From Candidatus Poribacteria bacterium (GTDB lineage: Bacteria; Poribacteria; WGA-4E; B28-G17): DNA of 64,000 bases. Shown one piece after another: positions 49,040 to 60,698 of the stretch. The translations under genes and the position numbers were made by a program. Below the pieces are notes generated by a model that saw only the letters and a list, made by a program, of their open reading frames with translations, ran no database searches and was not told the DNA's origin. The stretch lies in contig JAGGXZ010000190.1 of assembly GCA_021162805.1 (NCBI GenBank), positions 1-64,000 on the forward strand. Direction: 5' to 3'. The first letter of the stretch is position 1, and the number at the start of each line of letters is the position of its first letter.

Positions 49040-51877
49040 TTACCCGATCCTAATCGTGGTTATGCCAAAAGATGGAACCTGAATCTTCAAAAGATCTCCC
49101 TCCATCTTCAACGTCTCCTTCCGGATCGGCCTCTCCAGCAGATCGACCTCGACGACCTCGGAGTCGGGCTTGACGAGCGAGGGATCTATCCTGATCTCGG
49201 CCTCAGTGGCTCTGCCTTCAGTCTCGTACAGCCTGATCACAAGCCCATCCCCGTCCTCAGCCTTCTTAAGTCCCGATATGAAGATGTTGGAGGGATGGAC
49301 GGCGATAAATCCTTTCTCCTTCGGCAGATCGCCCTCGTGCACATCGGTCGCCACGATCTCAATGGAGCGGTTGAAATCATATCCGGCTCTGATAGCATAG
49401 GACGGAGTCCAATCCTCTCCGTGCGGCAGGAGAGCGAGTTTTATCTCATGCCGTCCAAGCTCCGGCAGGGGATCGGGATCGTAGCTGCTGCGTATGAGCG
49501 TCAGTGCGAGTTCATTTTCGGTCGCGCTATGGCCGTATTTGTAATCGTTCAGGAGCGTCACACCCACATTGCCTTTGCCGTCCAGCCTCTCGCCCGTCAG
49601 ATCGGCCCACCTCAGCGCCGGTACCTCCTCGCCGTTGGTGGGCCTTTCGATATGGCCGCAGGGAATCTCGAACCTGGCTCTGCCGCTGCGCACCGCTATG
49701 GGGAAGACGATCCTCAACATCGGCACGCCGTAATCGGGTCTGCCTATCTCCAGCCAGTCGATGGCAAGCCTGAGCTCCACCCAGGGGATCCCCGCCTTGA
49801 GCGAGATCTCGGTTGTAAACCGCGACTCATTGTGCTTCCGATGAGCTCGGATGAGGCCCAGATATGGCCCCTTATGAACGACCTCCAACGTGGCGCCATC
49901 GATGAGATCGACCTGTTTGACTATTTGACCTATCTCCCATGCAGTCATGCCGTGTGGCTCTTCAAGCAGCCATCGAAGCAGGCCAAGTTTGCCGCCGTCG
50001 GGGACTAGATCGTATCCCGTTCTCTTATCCACCAGCGAGGAGATCGCCCCCGAGCTCGGGTCCACTTCGACCCTCAGGAACTCGTTTTCGATCACGTTCG
50101 GTTCCTCAACCTTAACAGCTTGCTCGGCTTTAAGGGATGACTCGGAAAGGCCGACGGCATAAACCCTATATCCGACCGGCGGCAGTTTCCTGACCGGGAA
50201 GAGAACGCTCGTGAACCGGTGTCCCCAGTATCCGCCCTGCTCGACCACCTGGCCGGGTATCTCCTCGCCTGAAGGTGAGATGACCTTAACGCGATCGGCG
50301 GGGAGATCTTTATCCCAGACTTTAACCGTCACCAGCTCATCCCTCTCCCACGGATTGGGGTTGAAGACGATGAAAGGATCGATCGGTATCGCGCCGGTCC
50401 CGATGCTCGAGACTTTTCCGAGGGCACTCTCGTTTCCCGCTCCCGCCCCGATGTTATCGCCGAGATCTCCGGCCGATCCATTCATCCCCGTTGTATCCAC
50501 CCGTGATGCCAGTGAACGTAGGGCTCTGGTCTTGATCATACCGGCTCTTGCAAGTATCTCCTGGAAAAGACCCTGTGAGTATTCATATGTGGCATGGACT
50601 CCGGAGCCCGGAAGTATGTCGTGGAACTGATTGAACATGGCGTTTCGCCAGGCCACGGCGAGATCCTCCACGGGATAGGGCATCCCTAAGAGCCGGGAGC
50701 CGATGACGGCAGCCACCTCAGCCTCGAAGAGGCGGTTTTCGCTATATCTGTTGGCCCGTTTGATGTTGCTCTGCGAGGTATAACACCCTCTGAAGACGAA
50801 GTTCAATTCATCGTCCACGACCGTTAGATCTTCAGGAAGCTTAGGCTCTATAACCGAGAAATACTCCTCCGTAGTGCTGAGCTTGATTTTCGGGAAGATC
50901 GGCCAGGAGTTTATCTCAATGACGTTCATCAGATCCCGTCTCGTCGGCCCGCCTCCGTGGTCTCCGACGCCGTAGACGAAGAGGTAGTCTTTCAAACCCG
51001 TCTCTTTTTCGAACTTGAACAGGGCAGAGATTATGTCCCCTCCAGTCGGTCCGCCCATAGGGGTTTTATCGGCCGGGTTCATGTGGCCGATATACCAGAG
51101 CTCTGAATCATCGTAGGCGAGCACCCTAGATCCGTCCGGGCCCCGCCACCAGAACAGCTTATGACCCTTCCCGCCGCGGCAGAAGTAATACCTCTTCACT
51201 CCGGCCCTTGCCAGAAAGGAGGGCATCGTGTGAGGATGGCCGAAGAGATCCGGCTCCCAGTCGATCTTAATGGCGTCAACCGGCACTCCGAACTCCTGAC
51301 TTATGAACCTTTTAGTGTAAAGCAGATGTCTGCAGATCATCTCGCCAGAGCTGAGGTTTTCATCTCCCTCCACCCAGGTGCTGGCTGTGATCTCCCATCT
51401 TCCCTCTTTAAAACGCTCCTTAACCCTCTCATAGAGCTCGGGCAGATACTCCTTCAACGCCATGTAGGTGGAAGCCTGGCTTTGAGAGAATCGAAATTCG
51501 GGGAATTCATCCATGAGCCTGTCCACCGTGGAGAAAGTGTCGTTTATGACGCTGACCGTCTCCGGCCAAGGCCACATCCAGTTCATGTCTATATGAGCGT
51601 GCCCGACGCAGTAGATCGTGTATTCTTTCGCCACCTTCCCGATCGGTTTGAGTATTTTTTCGGCCTCTTCGACGGCGGACTTTAGGTCCGATTCCCCTTC
51701 CTTAAGCTTCGACTCCACATGTTGAACGGCCTTCTCTATAAGCCGCTGCCACTCCTCCTTTTTTTCGGGCCTGGCCTCACATAACCCCAAGGAGAATCGG
51801 ATCTCGTGATAGAACCTGTCGATGTATCTCCTCTCCCCTTTGACCGAAGATCTTATCGATTCAAGCCGTTCCTCCAT
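49040..51877 (-). CDS. GH38 alpha-mannosidase
   Basis: A 945-residue glycosidase. The GH38 catalytic barrel shows CVGHAHIDMNWMWPWPET (zinc-binding HxHxD) near residues 90-107 and KIDWEPDLFGHPHTMPSFL with the nucleophile Asp further on; FVYGVGDHGGGPTRRD follows. A middle three-helix domain and large C-terminal beta domains complete the family layout. It removes alpha-linked mannose from glycans. No signal peptide is visible from the chosen ATG, so it acts in the cytoplasm. The start at 51877 has AGGAGAG upstream and a promoter 36 bases further; in-frame codons up to 52015 lie before that promoter. Confidence 0.94.
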   Translation of the reverse strand: MEERLESIRSSVKGERRYIDRFYHEIRFSLGLCEARPEKKEEWQRLIEKAVQHVESKLKEGESDLKSAVEEAEKILKPIGKVAKEYTIYCVGHAHIDMNWMWPWPETVSVINDTFSTVDRLMDEFPEFRFSQSQASTYMALKEYLPELYERVKERFKEGRWEITASTWVEGDENLSSGEMICRHLLYTKRFISQEFGVPVDAIKIDWEPDLFGHPHTMPSFLARAGVKRYYFCRGGKGHKLFWWRGPDGSRVLAYDDSELWYIGHMNPADKTPMGGPTGGDIISALFKFEKETGLKDYLFVYGVGDHGGGPTRRDLMNVIEINSWPIFPKIKLSTTEEYFSVIEPKLPEDLTVVDDELNFVFRGCYTSQSNIKRANRYSENRLFEAEVAAVIGSRLLGMPYPVEDLAVAWRNAMFNQFHDILPGSGVHATYEYSQGLFQEILARAGMIKTRALRSLASRVDTTGMNGSAGDLGDNIGAGAGNESALGKVSSIGTGAIPIDPFIVFNPNPWERDELVTVKVWDKDLPADRVKVISPSGEEIPGQVVEQGGYWGHRFTSVLFPVRKLPPVGYRVYAVGLSESSLKAEQAVKVEEPNVIENEFLRVEVDPSSGAISSLVDKRTGYDLVPDGGKLGLLRWLLEEPHGMTAWEIGQIVKQVDLIDGATLEVVHKGPYLGLIRAHRKHNESRFTTEISLKAGIPWVELRLAIDWLEIGRPDYGVPMLRIVFPIAVRSGRARFEIPCGHIERPTNGEEVPALRWADLTGERLDGKGNVGVTLLNDYKYGHSATENELALTLIRSSYDPDPLPELGRHEIKLALLPHGEDWTPSYAIRAGYDFNRSIEIVATDVHEGDLPKEKGFIAVHPSNIFISGLKKAEDGDGLVIRLYETEGRATEAEIRIDPSLVKPDSEVVEVDLLERPIRKETLKMEGDLLKIQVPSFGITTIRIG

Positions 51878-51919
51878 TCTTCTCTCCTGACGATGATGGA
51901 TTTCTGAAGATCGATCTTG

Positions 51920-51948
51920 ATTATAACCTATACGGCGGAAGGGGTCAA
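51920..51948 (-). promoter_or_regulatory. Near-consensus promoter of the GH38 gene
   Basis: Minus-strand TTGACC (51948-51943), a 17-base spacer and a perfect TATAAT (51925-51920). It fixes the mannosidase start at 51877. Confidence 0.72.
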
Positions 51949-52033
51949 ATCTATTTGCTCGTATTGTGCCGATCATATCACCGTCAGGCGTGGGGATCTC
52001 GAGGCTGCTACCCACCGTAACTGGTATTACTTA

Positions 52034-52099: not shown

Positions 52100-53542
52100 A
52101 TGTTAAACATATTTGCTGTGGCGCCCTCAACGGTCAAAGTAGGGGAGAGGTTCTCCATTGGGGTTAAGATCTGCACGCATCCTTATTTTGTCGGCGCTTC
52201 CTGCTATATGCACTCCCATCCGGTGAAAAGCCCGTTTAATTCGTCCCCACGCGGAATCATTTACATGGATAACGTTCCACCTGAGTGGCAAGGGACAATC
52301 GAAATCCGCGGAGGGGAGGATTATAACGGGCCTGAACGATTTGTGTTTGATGGTAAGACAAGCCCTTTCCCGGGGGACAGAAGACCAATCGCACGGATAG
52401 AAGGTTTGAGCTTCTCAAGGCCGGGCACTAAATTCATTGAGATCATCGAAACCGGAAGTGGAAATACGTTCGTGAGCAATCCCATCAGAGTCTCGCCCGG
52501 AGAGCCCGAGGAACGGCTTTTTTGGGCGGATCTTCACTGCCAGACGTTTTTTAGCGATGGATTACGCTGCCCTGAGGAACTTTATCGCTTCGCCCGAGAC
52601 GAAGCTTTCCTCGATGTATTTGCCCTTTCCGATCACTCCGAAGCCCTCACCGACAGGCAATGGGACTACTTCACGGCCGTTACAAATGATTTTAACTGCC
52701 CGGGGCGGTTTGTCACCTTGGTGGGGCAGGAGTGGACCAGCGGGAAATGGGGTCACAGGAACGCCTACTTCCCCGGAGATTACGGTCCCATCTGGAGATG
52801 CCTAGATCCTAAGTTCAGCGATTTGGAAGATCTCTACGCCGCGGCGAGGGAATATGGAGCTTTGTTGATTCCCCATCACTCAGCGAATGAAGAGATGGGC
52901 ATTAACTGGGACAACGGACATGATCCGGAGGTAGAACGGCTTGTAGAAATTTATTCCATCTGGGGCAATAGTGAACGCCCCGCCAGAGAGGGAAATCCCA
53001 GACCTATACGTGTCAACGGCGGCGAGAGAGATGGACGACACGTCGTCGATGCTCTCAGGCGAGGTTATCGATTCGGAATTGTAGGCGGGGGAGATATTCA
53101 CGATGGAAGACCTGGCGATGAACTGCATACCCTACAACGGAGACCTGAAAGCTACCGCAGGCTCTGGCGTCAGGGAATAACGGGCATCTGGGCGAGAAAA
53201 CTGACACGAGAAGCGATCTTCGAGGCACTGTGGAACCGCCGTGTCTTCGCCACCACGAATGTGAGGATATTCCTTAAATTCAGCGCCGATGGATCGCCGA
53301 TGGGTTCAGAGGTGAAAGCGAACAATGAGGTTCATTTTCTCCTGGAGATCGCAAGCGAGGTGCCAATCGCGCGTATCGACCTGGTGAAAAACGGCGATGA
53401 TCTCCACACCGAGTATCCGAATGTCAGAGAGTTAGTCCGTGATTTCAGCGATGATCCCGAAGATGGAGATTGGTATTATGTGAGGGTGACTCGCATAGAT
53501 GGTGAGATGGCTTGGTCAAGCCCCATCTGGATCAAGAGATAA
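52100..53542 (+). CDS. DUF3604 / PHP-like metal-dependent hydrolase
   Basis: A 480-residue protein. An N-terminal beta domain (about 1-140) precedes a PHP-type barrel: WADLHCQTFFSDG (HxH-type start near residue 148), ALSDHSEALTDRQWDYF, LIPHHSANEEMGINWDN and GGDIHDGRPGDE offer the metal ligands. This is the DUF3604 family, abundant in bacteria that degrade complex polymers, with unsettled substrates. No signal peptide is seen. GGGGAGAAAGCG precedes the ATG. It lies divergent to the mannosidase and next to another glycan-type gene. Confidence 0.88.
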   Translation: MLNIFAVAPSTVKVGERFSIGVKICTHPYFVGASCYMHSHPVKSPFNSSPRGIIYMDNVPPEWQGTIEIRGGEDYNGPERFVFDGKTSPFPGDRRPIARIEGLSFSRPGTKFIEIIETGSGNTFVSNPIRVSPGEPEERLFWADLHCQTFFSDGLRCPEELYRFARDEAFLDVFALSDHSEALTDRQWDYFTAVTNDFNCPGRFVTLVGQEWTSGKWGHRNAYFPGDYGPIWRCLDPKFSDLEDLYAAAREYGALLIPHHSANEEMGINWDNGHDPEVERLVEIYSIWGNSERPAREGNPRPIRVNGGERDGRHVVDALRRGYRFGIVGGGDIHDGRPGDELHTLQRRPESYRRLWRQGITGIWARKLTREAIFEALWNRRVFATTNVRIFLKFSADGSPMGSEVKANNEVHFLLEIASEVPIARIDLVKNGDDLHTEYPNVRELVRDFSDDPEDGDWYYVRVTRIDGEMAWSSPIWIKR

Positions 53543-53628: not shown

Positions 53629-53672
53629 TTCCCTCCGAGAAAGCTCAGTAGATTCTCAAACGGAGGACAAGC

Positions 53673-55958
53673 ATGAGGATCGAGGAAATCACCATGATAC
53701 TGTTTCTGCTCGTGGTGGTTCCAAAGATGGCTGTTTCCTCGCTTGATGAAGGGATCTGGCCGCTTCCGGAATGGTCCCGCGCCACACCGTCGGAGATGGG
53801 TCTGGATGAGTCTCTGCTGCGTCGAGCTCGGGATTATGCGCTGAGCGGCGGTGGTTCGGGACTCATTATCCGGCATGGCAGGGTGGTTATGGCTTGGGGC
53901 GATCCGAAGCGGCTCTACGACCTTAAATCCACCACGAAATCCATCGGTGTCACGGCCCTCGGCCTGGCCATCAAGGACGGCAAAATGCGCTTGGACGATA
54001 AGGCTATCAGATATCATCCAAGCTTGGGCGTGCCGCCCGAGAGCAACCGTAAAACCGGCTGGCTCAACGAGATCACCATCCTTCACCTTGCAACACAGAC
54101 GGCGGGTTTCGCCAAGCCCGGGGGATACACCGAGTTGCTTTTCGAGCCGGGGACGATGTGGCATTACAGCGACAGCGGCCCGAATTGGCTGGTGGAGTGC
54201 ATAACCCTTGTTTATCGATGTGACCTGAGGGACCTTCTCTTCGAGCGTGTGTTCACGCCGTTGGGCATCAAGCCGAGCGATCTGAAATGGCGTGAAAACG
54301 CCTACCGTCCACACACCATCAACGGCATCAAACGACGGGAGTTCGGTTCGGGCATCAGCGCTGATGTGGACGCGATGGCTCGTATCGGCTATCTCTATCT
54401 GCGCGAGGGACGGTGGAGCGGGAGACAGATCCTCCCGAAAGAGTTCGTAGATACCGTTCGCAGGCCCGTACCCGATTTGATCGGTCTGCCCGAATACGAT
54501 CCCGAAAAATACGGCAACGCCTCCGATCACTATGGTTTGCTCTGGTGGAACAACGGCGATGGCACATTACCCGGTGTTCCGCGCGATGCCTATTGGTCGT
54601 GGGGATTATACGACAGTTTGATAGTGGTTATCCCTTCCCTCGATATCGTGATTGCCAGGGCGGGGAGATCCTGGCAGCGCGGTTGGGACGGCCATTACGA
54701 TGTCCTCAAACCCTTCCTGCAACCGATTGTCGCTTCCGCTCGAAAGGAGCGATCAAAAGTTAGCATCGTCCCTTCATCGTTCGACTTCATTATCGCCGAT
54801 CCCAGACATCCTCAATGGCTCCGCCACAGGGACGGCCGTCCTTTTTTCATGTGCGGTCCTGGCGATCCGGAGGATTTCCTCTATCGTGGTCGGCTCAATC
54901 CCGATGGCACGCGTAACGGCGATCAGATGGAGCTTATCCATAAGTTGAAGGACACAGGCGCTAACTGCATCTATCTGATGGCCGTCCGCTCACATGGCGG
55001 CGATGGGGATCAAACGCAAAATCCCTTTATAGACCACGATCCGGCGAAGGGGATCAACCACAAGGTGCTCGATCAGTGGGAAACCTGGTTCACCGAAATG
55101 GACAGAAACGGCATCGTCATCTTCTTCATCTTCTATGATGACAGCGCTCGGATCTGGGACACAGGAGATGAGGTGGAGGAAGCTGAGCGTGAGTTCATCC
55201 ATACACTCGTCGATCGTTTCGAGCATCATAGAAACCTGATCTGGTGCGTGGCGGAAGAGTATCAGGAGGCATTCAGCCCGGAGCGAGTGAGACGCCTTGC
55301 CGCCGAGATCCGAGCTGCCGATGAGTATGACCATCCCATAGCCGTTCATAAGCTGCATGGGCTGGATTTCTCGGAGTTCGCCGATGATCCGAACATAGAT
55401 CAGTTCGCCATACAATACAACGTGAAGACGGCTGAAGCCCTACATCATGGGATCGTCACCGCCTGGAGGAATGCTGCCGGGCGGTACAACTTGAATATGG
55501 CGGAGGCGGCGAACTTCGGCACAGGCGCGGAACTGCGACGAAAGCTATGGGCCTGCGCTATGGGAGGCGCATATGTGATGGTCCTGAGGATGGATATCGC
55601 CCATACACCGCCGGACGATCTAAAGGCATGCGGACACCTGGCGCGTTTCTTCGAGTCCACCAACTTTTACGAGATGGCGCCTCACGATGAGCTGGGCTGC
55701 GGGGACACCGAATACGTGCTGGCCAAGCCCGGCGAGAGCTACATCGCTTATACCTCGAGAGGAAAGGTCGGGATCGGATTGAAGGGGATGACAGCCGGTA
55801 CTTACACGTTCCGATGGTTCGATCCCATAACGGGAAAGAGCGTCGTTCAGAGCGACGTCCAGGTTAAAGGGGGCGATCAAACCTGGCCTCGACCCTCAGG
55901 GATCGGATCTGAGGTGGCGGTCTACATCTACTGGGAGGTAAAATCGAAAGGCCAATAA
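53673..55958 (+). CDS. Beta-lactamase-fold serine hydrolase fused to a glycosidase-like barrel
   Basis: A 761-residue exported protein. After a signal peptide (about 1-22), residues 30-365 form a class-C beta-lactamase-type hydrolase with the nucleophile Ser86 in S-T-T-K and Tyr165 in Y-S-D. The usual KTG/HxG strand reads SWGLYDS. From about 375 onward the chain switches to a glycosidase-like TIM barrel of the DUF4038 type (QWLRHRDGRPFFMCGPGDPE, then LIWCVAEEYQEAF and LNMAEAANFG as candidate acid residues) and ends in a beta domain (about 690-755). Such serine hydrolases cleave esters or amides, so the fusion could deacylate and trim one glycan substrate; this is inference. GGAGG precedes the ATG. 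Confidence 0.82.
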   Translation: MRIEEITMILFLLVVVPKMAVSSLDEGIWPLPEWSRATPSEMGLDESLLRRARDYALSGGGSGLIIRHGRVVMAWGDPKRLYDLKSTTKSIGVTALGLAIKDGKMRLDDKAIRYHPSLGVPPESNRKTGWLNEITILHLATQTAGFAKPGGYTELLFEPGTMWHYSDSGPNWLVECITLVYRCDLRDLLFERVFTPLGIKPSDLKWRENAYRPHTINGIKRREFGSGISADVDAMARIGYLYLREGRWSGRQILPKEFVDTVRRPVPDLIGLPEYDPEKYGNASDHYGLLWWNNGDGTLPGVPRDAYWSWGLYDSLIVVIPSLDIVIARAGRSWQRGWDGHYDVLKPFLQPIVASARKERSKVSIVPSSFDFIIADPRHPQWLRHRDGRPFFMCGPGDPEDFLYRGRLNPDGTRNGDQMELIHKLKDTGANCIYLMAVRSHGGDGDQTQNPFIDHDPAKGINHKVLDQWETWFTEMDRNGIVIFFIFYDDSARIWDTGDEVEEAEREFIHTLVDRFEHHRNLIWCVAEEYQEAFSPERVRRLAAEIRAADEYDHPIAVHKLHGLDFSEFADDPNIDQFAIQYNVKTAEALHHGIVTAWRNAAGRYNLNMAEAANFGTGAELRRKLWACAMGGAYVMVLRMDIAHTPPDDLKACGHLARFFESTNFYEMAPHDELGCGDTEYVLAKPGESYIAYTSRGKVGIGLKGMTAGTYTFRWFDPITGKSVVQSDVQVKGGDQTWPRPSGIGSEVAVYIYWEVKSKGQ

Positions 55959-57899: not shown

Positions 57900-60698
57900 C
57901 TATCCCTTTATAACTCCTAACGGCCTCATCCGGGCAACTCTCTTCGATATGCCTGCTCCATGTGCGGTGTTGACCACCTCATCGACGTCCTTATACGCGT
58001 CGGGCATCTCCTCAGCCAGCGTCTCCCTACCGGCCGAACGCACATATATGTCCTGCTCCTCCAGTTCCCTCTGGATGTTTCGGCCCCTGGCCGTTCTGAT
58101 AGCCTGTCTTCTGCTCAGGACCCTTCCGGCGCCATGGCAGGTTGTGCCGAATGCCTCCTTCATGGCGAGCTCAGTTCCAACCAACACGTATGAATGGGTG
58201 CCCATATCTCCTGGGATGATGACCGGCTGGCCGATGGATCTGTATCTCTCAGGGATATCAGGATGCCCGGGCGGGAAAGCTCGCGTAGCACCCTTTCGGT
58301 GAACGCATAGAGTAACCTTCTTCCCGTTAAGATCATGTTTTTCGATCTTGGCGATGTTATGGGCGACGTCGTAGACCAAATCCATCCCCAGCTGTGAATC
58401 GCTCATGGCGAAGAATTTCTGGAAGACCTGGCGCGTCCAATGCATCAGACACTGTCTGTTAGCCCAGGCGTAGTTGGCCGCGCAGGCCATTGCGGCGAGA
58501 TACCTCTGCCCTTCAGGGGAGTTTACAGGAGCACAAACGAGCTGTCTGTCGGGAATGGAGATGCCGTATTTTTGCGGAACCCTCGACCAGGCTTTGATCG
58601 TGTCGTCGCAGACCTGATGACCGAAGCCGCGCGAGCCCGTGTGGATCATGACGGTGATCATTCCTTCCTCTAATCCGAGGAGTTCAGCGGCATGCCTATC
58701 GTATATCTTCTCGACGAGCTGAACTTCAAGGAAGTGATTTCCGGAGCCGAGGGTGCCGAGTTGATTTCTGCCGCGCTGATACGCCCTTCGAGATGGGGCC
58801 GACGGATCGGCGAACTCCAGGCAGCCGTTCTCCTCCGTGTAGAGTAGGTCTTCCGGCCTACCATAGCCGTTATCAACGGCCCATCTGGCACCCTTTTTCA
58901 GGACGTTTCTCATCTCAGACTCAGATAGCCTGATACTTCCTGTTGAACCGACCCCAGTGGGTATTCTCTCAAAGAGAGCATTTACCAGATCTCTGATCCT
59001 GTCCCTAACATCATCATATGTGAGATTGGTCCTGAGCAATCTCACGCCACAGTTATGGACGACGACGCCATTGGCTATGAAATTATGAGCTTCGTGATAA
59101 ACTCCCACATCGTAGAATCTGTCGTAGTCCGGTTTAACGTGTTCGACTTTAACGATCCTGTCAGCAACGAAGCCACCCTCATAGCCGAGCTTATCCGCGA
59201 ACTCCTCAAAAGTCGGAAAGCTCTGAGCTATCCTATTAGCTTTTTTAACCGCCTCCTTACGGATTCCCCTAACCCGCTCCTTCCTTTTCAGGTATTCATA
59301 ACCTATAAGCCCTTTAACCTTCTTCTCGATAGCATATTCGTAGTTGATCAAACCCAAGAAGCGCTTTATATTTTCCTCTCCGACGATCGACAGCCTATAC
59401 GTAACTCCGCCTCTGAGCGATTTAACAGGGTATATTATGCTCTCCACCTCGAATTCCCTGAGGAGATCTACGATATCTCCGAGGAAGGCGAGCAGATTTC
59501 CCTCCAGATCAGCATGTTTGGATTGCGTGAGATTTATCGGCAGAGGAGTGTAGCTTTTGAATTCCGGGATGCTTCCGTTCGCCCCGAAAAATCCGGCCAG
59601 GAAGTTCCTCTTGACCCATCTCGGGGCCCTTATAATCCACCTTGGAACGTTATATACCTGTTCCGTCTTTTTTCCAACAGGCATTCCAAGCTTATGCATG
59701 AACAGAGCAAAAGCCCCTGAGGTGATCTTAATCCTTGCTGAGCCGCTTTCGCCTTCATAGGTTCTCCCCCACGCGGTCTCTGTATGAAGGTTTCTCCCTC
59801 TGGTGTAGATCTTAGACGGTTTGATGCCGAGCTTCCTCAGATCCTTTCTAATCTCCTCGAGCTCCTCTCCCTTTCCGTAAAAGCTCAGAATCAGGCGCTT
59901 ACCGCTTTCGAGATGTAAGCTCCCAGCCCCAAAGGCAAAGCCAAGAAGCCTCGCTATCGTTCCGATCCTCGGGTCACTCCCCCTAAGTGGAACAAGTCCT
60001 CTCTCCCTGTAATATCTCAGTATCTGTGTATCGTATCCATTGAAATCCTTCTCCGTCAGGATAAACTCAGGATCCTCCTCATACTCAAGGCCCTCAAACG
60101 GATAGACAAGAAGATAACCGCCTTCTTTAATTTCGCCGAGAGGCTTATATCCCTCGGGCGTAAGAACAGGATGGTCATCGCTTCCCTCAACGATCCTGTT
60201 GTTCTCGGTGGTTATCCTGATAGCGATTTCGTGTGATTCAACTTTCCTTTCCGCAACGAGTGATATCCTTGAGGAATCATTATGCCCTTCCTCGATATCA
60301 TAAACCTTGAGTTCCTGGAGCTTGAACCTCTCAGGAAGATCCTCCACCTTCACCCAGTAGCCATGTTCGGTTAAAACCCTGGAATCAGGAGCGAGACAGT
60401 TGACATCATATCCGACACCGCCCGGGCTGATAATCCCTCCTTCCTCGGGATCGGTCGCCGCGACGCCACCTATTGGAAATCCATATCCCCAGTGTATATC
60501 CGGCATGGCAAGTGAGTATTTGACGATTCCGGGCAAGGTCGCGACGTTGGCGAGCTGAAGGAGGCTGTTATCGTTCTGAATATCTTTATAAAGCCTCTCG
60601 CTTGCGTAAAAGATCCCATCAACTCTCATCCCCGGCACGCTCCCTTTTGGGATGCGCCATTTATAGTTGGAGAGCTTCTCGACCTTGATCTTCGCCAT
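57900..60698 (-). CDS. rtcB: RNA ligase RtcB precursor carrying an intein
   Basis: A 932-residue precursor. Residues 1-100 and 550-932 join into a normal 483-residue RtcB, the Mn/GTP-dependent ligase that seals 2',3'-cyclic phosphate to 5'-OH RNA ends in tRNA splicing or repair. Markers are YGFPIGGVAA, GVGYDVN then CGVRLL, GTLGSGNHFLEV, HTGSRGFGHQ and TCHGAGRVLSRR (guanylate-accepting His region). The intein interrupts it exactly before the metal-binding Cys, so the ligase is inactive until splicing. Insertion at this Cys is also known in archaeal RtcB such as that of Pyrococcus horikoshii. Two tRNA genes and a terminator stand directly upstream, serS directly downstream. Confidence 0.96.
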   Translation of the reverse strand: MAKIKVEKLSNYKWRIPKGSVPGMRVDGIFYASERLYKDIQNDNSLLQLANVATLPGIVKYSLAMPDIHWGYGFPIGGVAATDPEEGGIISPGGVGYDVNCLAPDSRVLTEHGYWVKVEDLPERFKLQELKVYDIEEGHNDSSRISLVAERKVESHEIAIRITTENNRIVEGSDDHPVLTPEGYKPLGEIKEGGYLLVYPFEGLEYEEDPEFILTEKDFNGYDTQILRYYRERGLVPLRGSDPRIGTIARLLGFAFGAGSLHLESGKRLILSFYGKGEELEEIRKDLRKLGIKPSKIYTRGRNLHTETAWGRTYEGESGSARIKITSGAFALFMHKLGMPVGKKTEQVYNVPRWIIRAPRWVKRNFLAGFFGANGSIPEFKSYTPLPINLTQSKHADLEGNLLAFLGDIVDLLREFEVESIIYPVKSLRGGVTYRLSIVGEENIKRFLGLINYEYAIEKKVKGLIGYEYLKRKERVRGIRKEAVKKANRIAQSFPTFEEFADKLGYEGGFVADRIVKVEHVKPDYDRFYDVGVYHEAHNFIANGVVVHNCGVRLLRTNLTYDDVRDRIRDLVNALFERIPTGVGSTGSIRLSESEMRNVLKKGARWAVDNGYGRPEDLLYTEENGCLEFADPSAPSRRAYQRGRNQLGTLGSGNHFLEVQLVEKIYDRHAAELLGLEEGMITVMIHTGSRGFGHQVCDDTIKAWSRVPQKYGISIPDRQLVCAPVNSPEGQRYLAAMACAANYAWANRQCLMHWTRQVFQKFFAMSDSQLGMDLVYDVAHNIAKIEKHDLNGKKVTLCVHRKGATRAFPPGHPDIPERYRSIGQPVIIPGDMGTHSYVLVGTELAMKEAFGTTCHGAGRVLSRRQAIRTARGRNIQRELEEQDIYVRSAGRETLAEEMPDAYKDVDEVVNTAHGAGISKRVARMRPLGVIKG
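59052..60398 (-). mobile_element. 449-residue intein in RtcB with degenerate LAGLIDADG motifs
   Basis: The intein spans residues 101-549 of the precursor. It starts at Cys101 (CLAPDSRVL), has a block-B SDDHPVL His, and ends VVVHN549 before Cys550, so all splicing residues are present. A LAGLIDADG-type homing domain occupies the middle: LLGFAFGAGS near 251-260 and FLAGFFGANGS near 366-376. In both, the acidic residue needed for DNA cutting is lost (Ala and Asn in the Asp position), so the nuclease is probably dead while splicing is kept. Base composition appears somewhat more AT-rich than the flanking RtcB halves. Confidence 0.95.

Follow-up and report, generated by a model that had tools for sequence, protein, structure and literature searches.

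A predicted serine hydrolase joined to a GH140-like barrel in one probably exported chain from a Poribacteria genome: a recurrent kind of fusion, of which this copy is probably the product of a module swap

Glycoside hydrolases of the GH140 family, represented by the apiosidase 8t9w and by BT_1012 (3kzs/5msy), combine a barrel with a beta-sandwich of the PF13204 plus PF12904 type, and their characterised members cut apiose, a furanose-type pentose. The SxxK serine hydrolases of PF00144, for their part, carry a third motif of the KTG, HxG or WGG type. Acyl and other substituents of glycans can block glycosidases. In PMC4032388, Asp187 and Glu284 are given as the putative catalytic pair of BT_1012, and Glu in place of Asp at the first of these sites is a minority of 17.3% of PF13204; PMC10115798 describes DUF4185/GH183 enzymes from other bacteria as endo-D-arabinofuranases. 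We found no published account of a fusion between an SxxK hydrolase and a GH140-like barrel in the open-access literature.

We analysed a stretch of 64,000 nucleotides (the window) from a genome of Candidatus Poribacteria (GCA_021162805.1, contig JAGGXZ010000190.1). A sequence-only reading had claimed that an SxxK/YSD hydrolase and a DUF4038-like barrel are fused there in one exported chain, encoded on the plus strand at 53673-55958. Both coordinates and strand hold, and PF00144 and PF13204 indeed fall within a single frame, which stays open for 761 codons from the ATG at 53673 with no internal stop; it is close to certain that one ORF encodes a two-domain chain. Its features and those of its neighbours are given below with residue numbers of the 761-aa chain; here and throughout, HA and HB denote two hydrolase subtypes, A the barrel, P a DUF4185 propeller, X a DUF5060-type barrel and N a nitrilase-like domain.

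49040..52015, minus strand: GH38 alpha-mannosidase, divergent neighbour outside the system (Pfam)
52100..53542, plus strand: DUF3604 / CehA-McbA-type metallohydrolase, neighbour outside the system (Pfam and NCBIfam)
53662..53666, plus strand: Shine-Dalgarno-like GGAGG, separated from the ATG by 6 bases (sequence reading)
53673..55958, plus strand: whole ORF of 761 aa, comprising probable signal peptide, SxxK hydrolase, linker, GH140-like barrel and beta-sandwich (ORF reading, Pfam and model)
53673..53741, plus strand: probable signal peptide, residues 1-23, a hydrophobic N-terminus (by eye)
53754..54746, plus strand: PF00144 serine hydrolase of the HA subtype, residues 28-358 (Pfam, alignment, tree and model)
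53928..53939, plus strand: Ser86-Thr-Thr-Lys89, the SxxK motif (S86 and K89 invariant in 32/32 aligned hydrolases)
54165..54173, plus strand: Tyr165-Ser-Asp167, the second motif (Y165 and D167 invariant in 32/32 aligned hydrolases)
54747..54782, plus strand: flexible linker and point of the kinship switch, residues 359-370 (pLDDT below 50 at 359-369; identity pattern)
54783..55667, plus strand: GH140-like TIM barrel (PF13204), residues 371-665 (Pfam, alignment and model)
55254..55259, plus strand: Glu528-Glu529, the latter in the column of the GGD-motif Asp (both invariant in 23/23 barrels)
55503..55505, plus strand: Glu611, proposed second catalytic acid, which would occupy the Glu284 position of BT_1012 (invariant in 23/23 barrels)
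55668..55937, plus strand: C-terminal beta-sandwich, PF12904-like, residues 666-755 (sub-threshold PF12904; strands of the model)

Pfam places PF00144 at residues 60-329 (E 1.7e-18, 67.4 bits against a curated cut-off of 27) and PF13204 at residues 382-605 (E 1.5e-9, 38.4 bits against a curated cut-off of 26.5), while PF12904 at residues 679-733 stays below threshold (17.8 bits against 22). Both halves lie in known families, and the variation consists in their combination and its shuffling. The N-terminus, judged by eye to be hydrophobic like those of the aligned fusions with an intact 5' end, suggests that the chain is probably exported. A structural model built from 25 related sequences (mean pLDDT 83.7, pTM 0.57), which supersedes one from 13 rows whose hydrolase half was poor (pLDDT 74.8), has two well-predicted bodies with a stretch of pLDDT below 50 between them; the pTM means that the mutual placement of the halves is not fixed. 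The linker had earlier been set at residues 365-375, which is close to the right place, but the model puts the poorly ordered stretch at 359-369 and the alignments of the barrel already start at about 371-373.

We favour, with moderate confidence in the statement as a whole, a reading of this chain as an exported deacylase-glycosidase working on one substituted glycan; catalysis, export, the shared substrate and the choice of an ester rather than an amide bond are each what we infer. The front half would be a beta-lactamase-fold serine hydrolase of the esterase branch, in which Ser86, assisted by Lys89 and Tyr165, would attack an acyl bond and the acyl group would then be freed by water. The back half would be a GH140-like glycosidase cutting a sugar linkage with Glu529 and Glu611. 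Tethered by the short flexible linker, the two might remove an acyl substituent and cut the uncovered sugar in the same place; the sequence-only reading had likewise suggested a possible two-step action on an acylated glycan.

With regard to the front half, an alignment of 32 hydrolase domains of both subtypes, picked by profile score (above 400 bits), shows S86, K89, Y165, D167 and G311 to be invariant, and by analogy with SxxK hydrolases we take Ser86 to be the nucleophile and Lys89 the general base. Gly311 is the only invariant position in the region of the third motif, where the window chain has W-S-W-G-L as against F/L-G-H in 12 HB rows. In VIA-align comparisons of the predicted model (Foldseek was also run), residues 30-361 superpose on Lsa45 (8dc1), a penicillin-binding protein with esterase activity going by its PDB title, with a Z of 29.1, and on PIB-1 (8rlj), EstG, a family VIII carboxylesterase (4ivi) and a macrolactin acyltransferase (6kjr) with a Z of about 28. 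Lsa45, EstG, the carboxylesterase and PIB-1 hence have the fold in common with the window hydrolase (Z about 28-29), and the SxxK and Tyr motifs are common to it and to the SxxK esterases and PIB-1, with 8rlj also matched by profile at E 2.4e-13; unlike any of these, the window hydrolase sits inside a two-enzyme chain. The nearest solved relatives in profile and fold searches are mixed: besides esterases they include amidases such as 6-aminohexanoate-dimer hydrolase, the beta-lactamase PIB-1 and an acyltransferase. The best NCBIfam matches are weak, 3-succinylated cholic acid synthase scoring 33.1 bits against a cut-off of 800 and methyl acetate hydrolase 27.7 against 550. We rejected a beta-lactamase in the resistance sense, as the NCBIfam scores lie far below their cut-offs, and class C beta-lactamase (NF033085) in particular, with 17.4 bits against 415.

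Given that the macrolactin acyltransferase lies so near in fold (Z 28.1), one could read the front half as a transacylase, or else as a substrate-binding module rather than a hydrolase; we consider this quite improbable, as S86, K89 and Y165 are invariant and esterases score equally high in the fold comparison. Of greater weight, if still unlikely, is the idea of an amidase or peptidase-like front half acting on a glycan with amide-linked groups, such as an N-acyl or aminoacyl sugar or a glycopeptide. Its nearest solved relatives include 6-aminohexanoate-dimer hydrolases, D-aminopeptidase and alkaline D-peptidase; moreover, two archaeal loci, from ANME-2 and Methanophagales (L053 and L054), join a nitrilase-like carbon-nitrogen hydrolase domain to this barrel, as detected by a profile built here in both and by PF00795 (E 2e-14) in L054, and in locus L044 the gene immediately preceding the fusion encodes a CN_hydrolase. 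These fusions and that gene point to amides as much as to esters. However, the nitrilase-type protein may have an unrelated role, and esterases too (Lsa45, EstG, the family VIII carboxylesterase) are among the best fold neighbours.

The back half resembles GH140 apiosidases in fold and in its match to PF13204. Residues 372-756 of the predicted model superpose on 8t9w (VIA-align Z 33.2, rmsd 3.6, 362 residues aligned) and residues 369-758 on BT_1012 (Z about 30), with barrel and beta-sandwich in common, an identity to these structures of 15-17% over about 362 residues and the difference that the window barrel comes after an N-terminal serine hydrolase. Of the 23 barrels aligned, no more than 9 reach E 0.001 against PF13204 when taken alone, and the group is thus distant from the core of that family. 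All 23, the rows having been picked by profile score (above 300 bits), retain E528, E529 and E611. In profile alignments E529 shares a column with the Asp in the GGD motif of BT_1012, Asp187 in our own numbering, and with that of a canonical PF13204 protein from the same genome; both BT_1012 and the window barrel thus have an acid at this position, Asp in the former and Glu in the latter. E611 misses the column of the canonical protein's second Glu by one, and its assignment as the second catalytic acid at the Glu284 position of BT_1012 is therefore probable, not proven.

We then examined how widely the fusion occurs. A single scan of genome contigs yielded 22 loci encoding a relative, and further relatives were drawn from the genomes behind these loci. 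Matches at E 1e-60 are found in at least 10 of 392 genomes of Planctomycetota, at least 17 of 291 of Armatimonadota, 9 of 68 of Hydrogenedentota and at least 4 of 387 of Verrucomicrobiota, the last with no hydrolase-barrel chain among them; the three figures given as minima are lower bounds because two or three candidates were scored per genome. In the window's own phylum 7 of 84 genomes have matches at E 1e-30, both halves being covered only in the window's own genome. A tally of domain architectures, made with our own profiles for the six modules (150-bit threshold, duplicates removed on a 40-residue core), comprises 22 HB-A chains, one each of HB-A-X, HB-X-A and A-HA, and one HA-A chain, that of the window. 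The remaining multi-module chains are 21 HA-P, one HA-HA-P, one HA-P-P, two N-A and one X-A, and 9 A, 24 HA and 3 HB chains lack another of the six modules; counted among the 24 HA rows are fragments, remote homologues and the chain of L036 discussed below, and some of the module-alone chains leave their contig stretch. Seven of the 22 HB-A chains (L040, L049, L088, L107, L111, L121 and L123) run off the sequence stretch, and the hydrolases of L088, L121 and L123 are divergent (180-293 bits). The 22 distinct hydrolase-barrel chains come from Planctomycetota, Armatimonadota and Hydrogenedentota. HB-A chains such as L035 and L037 have the domain order of the window chain, the DUF5060-type barrel is added at differing positions in L043 and L055, and at L086:46-2931 (minus strand; G095, the genome of L046) the barrel precedes a remote SxxK-type hydrolase (176 bits) in one frame of 962 aa. 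The earlier claim of a natural fusion is borne out in that an SxxK hydrolase and a GH140-like barrel are joined recurrently with both putative active sites conserved, and in that relatives encode fused chains rather than being split throughout.

The same data bear on whether an assembly error or chance read-through joined two genes. We collected one intact HA-barrel chain, and it comes from an assembly of 232 contigs; against this, a chain in another MAG, from Armatimonadetes (L036), is 76% identical to that of the window over residues 2-427, across the junction, with one in-frame stop inside, and 22 HB-type fusions occur elsewhere. This explanation is thus largely refuted and we rate it as extremely improbable. 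No relative is closer to the window chain than the L036 gene (L036:5881-7560), whose hydrolase half has an open frame and 83% identity and whose barrel half has a stop at the position of Gln381, misses about 75 residues and gives no match after about residue 531; it looks as if the barrel has decayed or the contig is faulty. An intact hydrolase beside a decayed barrel indicates that the halves are separable. We also considered spread by plasmids and rejected it: of 91 matching plasmid records none covers more than 80% of the chain. In the ten listed, the match lies in the hydrolase half, extends no further than residue 409 and has 23-28% identity.

The repeated pairing of a putative acyl-bond hydrolase with this barrel is our main evidence for a shared substrate, and suggests that the two activities work together. 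The halves might instead be merely co-exported and act on different substrates, the fusion serving co-secretion only. The predicted model, with its low pTM and disordered linker, offers no fixed interface, and 9 barrel chains, like a number of hydrolases, occur without the other five modules, some of them leaving their contig stretch. Nevertheless, the pairing is seen with two hydrolase subtypes and once in reversed order with a remote hydrolase, which is more than co-secretion predicts, and we hold co-secretion alone to be rather unlikely. Repeated fusion and exchanged modules point to a shared substrate for two poorly characterised groups, the PF00144 hydrolases of uncultured Planctomycetota and Armatimonadota and the distant GH140-like barrels.

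The two halves of the window chain differ in their kinship. Its barrel (residues 370-640) is 60.1-77.5% identical to those of 12 HB-A-type fusions, whereas its hydrolase (residues 28-355) is only 30.9-35.9% identical to those of the same 12 (28-33% to the HB rows on the 32-row alignment). Conversely, the hydrolase is 61-70% identical to the 15 HA hydrolases of that alignment, L036 aside, of which 11 are fused to a DUF4185-type propeller, and identity per block changes its pattern from block 331-360 to block 361-390, which places the switch of kinship there. A 49-row tree groups the window hydrolase with L036, the two lying within a clade of 16 rows (100/100) that consists of HA-P and HA chains, and forcing the window hydrolase together with the 16 HB rows worsens the fit by 60.8 log-likelihood units (AU p = 5.6e-5). 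In a quick 47-row tree (rows of at least 400 bits) none of the groupings that contain the window and at most half of the rows is well supported, and the five rows nearest to the window hydrolase all belong to HA. A barrel tree of 23 rows puts the window in an 18-row clade (98/98) of which 11 are HB-A chains, the only supported clade that contains it, with the bootstrap unsettled. The 49-row and 23-row trees were built from hydrolases above 200 bits and 250 aa and from barrels above 300 bits and 200 aa; the remote hydrolase of L086 was put in by hand, with a branch length of 2.77 and an unsure place.

This sequence evidence suggests a module swap in the window chain, in which an HA-type front half has come to stand before a barrel of the common kind. 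The exchange would have occurred at the linker, where an HA-type hydrolase, elsewhere found alone or with a DUF4185 propeller, would replace the usual HB-type. The HA-P chains (L006, L046, L047, L079 and others) share with the window a hydrolase of this kind in the same N-terminal position and differ in the partner, a DUF4185 (PF13810) propeller instead of a GH140-like barrel, and there are more distant chains of this architecture, such as L008 and L029; the HB-A chains, in contrast, share the domain order and differ in hydrolase subtype. An HB chain with barrel and a separate HA hydrolase coexist in at least 7 of 22 genomes (G084, G086, G089, G091, G092, G097 and G104), meaning that both donors can meet in one cell. 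Furthermore, the SerRS of the window genome is 52% and 62% identical to two partial matches in the genome of L036, lower than the 76% of the shared chain, and this one marker gene suggests lateral transfer. As for the propellers, 24 of 25 match PF13810 at E 0.001, with L006 and L056 above and L008 and L046 below its 39.5-bit cut-off; searched against structures, their profile retrieved no GH183 structure, only weak matches of the Asp-box sialidase and sortilin type, and the X profile retrieved 4n0r, a putative glycoside hydrolase.

The sequence-only reading had also drawn on the neighbouring DUF3604 and GH38 genes, the former of which ends 130 bases upstream of the fusion gene. This part does not stand, since homologues of these two and of eight other window genes (E 1e-6) are found beside none of the relatives in loci L001-L097, a search that covered ORFs from 100 aa upwards in flanks of up to 6 kb at 22 loci and of about 1.5 kb at the rest, the window's own overlapping loci being set aside. 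A conserved operon with DUF3604 and GH38 was accordingly rejected, and these genes should not serve to infer the substrate; by eye, neither protein has an obvious signal peptide. A shared glycan-pathway neighbourhood of the relatives was likewise discarded, as the families seen, 25 of 82 being listed, are mostly regulatory or housekeeping. Sulfatase occurs in 2 of 71 mechanically chosen neighbour ORFs from 13 of the 22 loci. The lack of a common glycan pathway among these neighbours counts against the favoured deacylase-glycosidase reading.

Taking the partners together, we offer a broader and speculative proposal, which we think unlikely: the serine hydrolase could be an exchangeable opening module, attached in several phyla to the GH140-like barrel, the DUF4185 propeller and DUF5060-type barrel chains, whose partners are traded by recombination at the linker. 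Furanose-type pentoses are cut by characterised members of two of the partner families, apiose by one and D-arabinofuranose by the other, and glycans of acylated pentofuranoses, such as arabinans bearing ester or succinyl groups, might then be the common class of substrate. If correct, this would amount to an unrecognised class of self-contained deacylate-then-cleave enzymes.

The window genome (4.35 Mb in 232 contigs) has PF00144 at 3 places and PF13204 at 3, with both only at this ORF. It further encodes an HB hydrolase without a barrel (L101:3457-4515) and two DUF4185 proteins without a hydrolase; in L101:328-4515, on contig C66, the barrel-less HB hydrolase follows a DUF6259 gene by 93 bases on the same strand. 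Several relatives have layouts of their own. At L044:2172-8368 a nitrilase-type gene and a hydrolase-barrel fusion are clustered with an X-type barrel ORF that overlaps and with a gene for a DUF6298 protein. In L045:3292-7173 a hydrolase and an X-A chain lie in one frame, parted by a single stop codon after which a fresh hydrophobic start follows. In L051:1708-4542 a single frame encodes two SxxK hydrolase domains, which differ from each other, and then a DUF4185 propeller, and in L047 the first of two SxxK hydrolases is a separate overlapping ORF. Finally, at 57900-60698 on the minus strand of the window, Pfam detects an RtcB gene (PF01139) split by an intein with a splicing domain and a LAGLIDADG_3 endonuclease.
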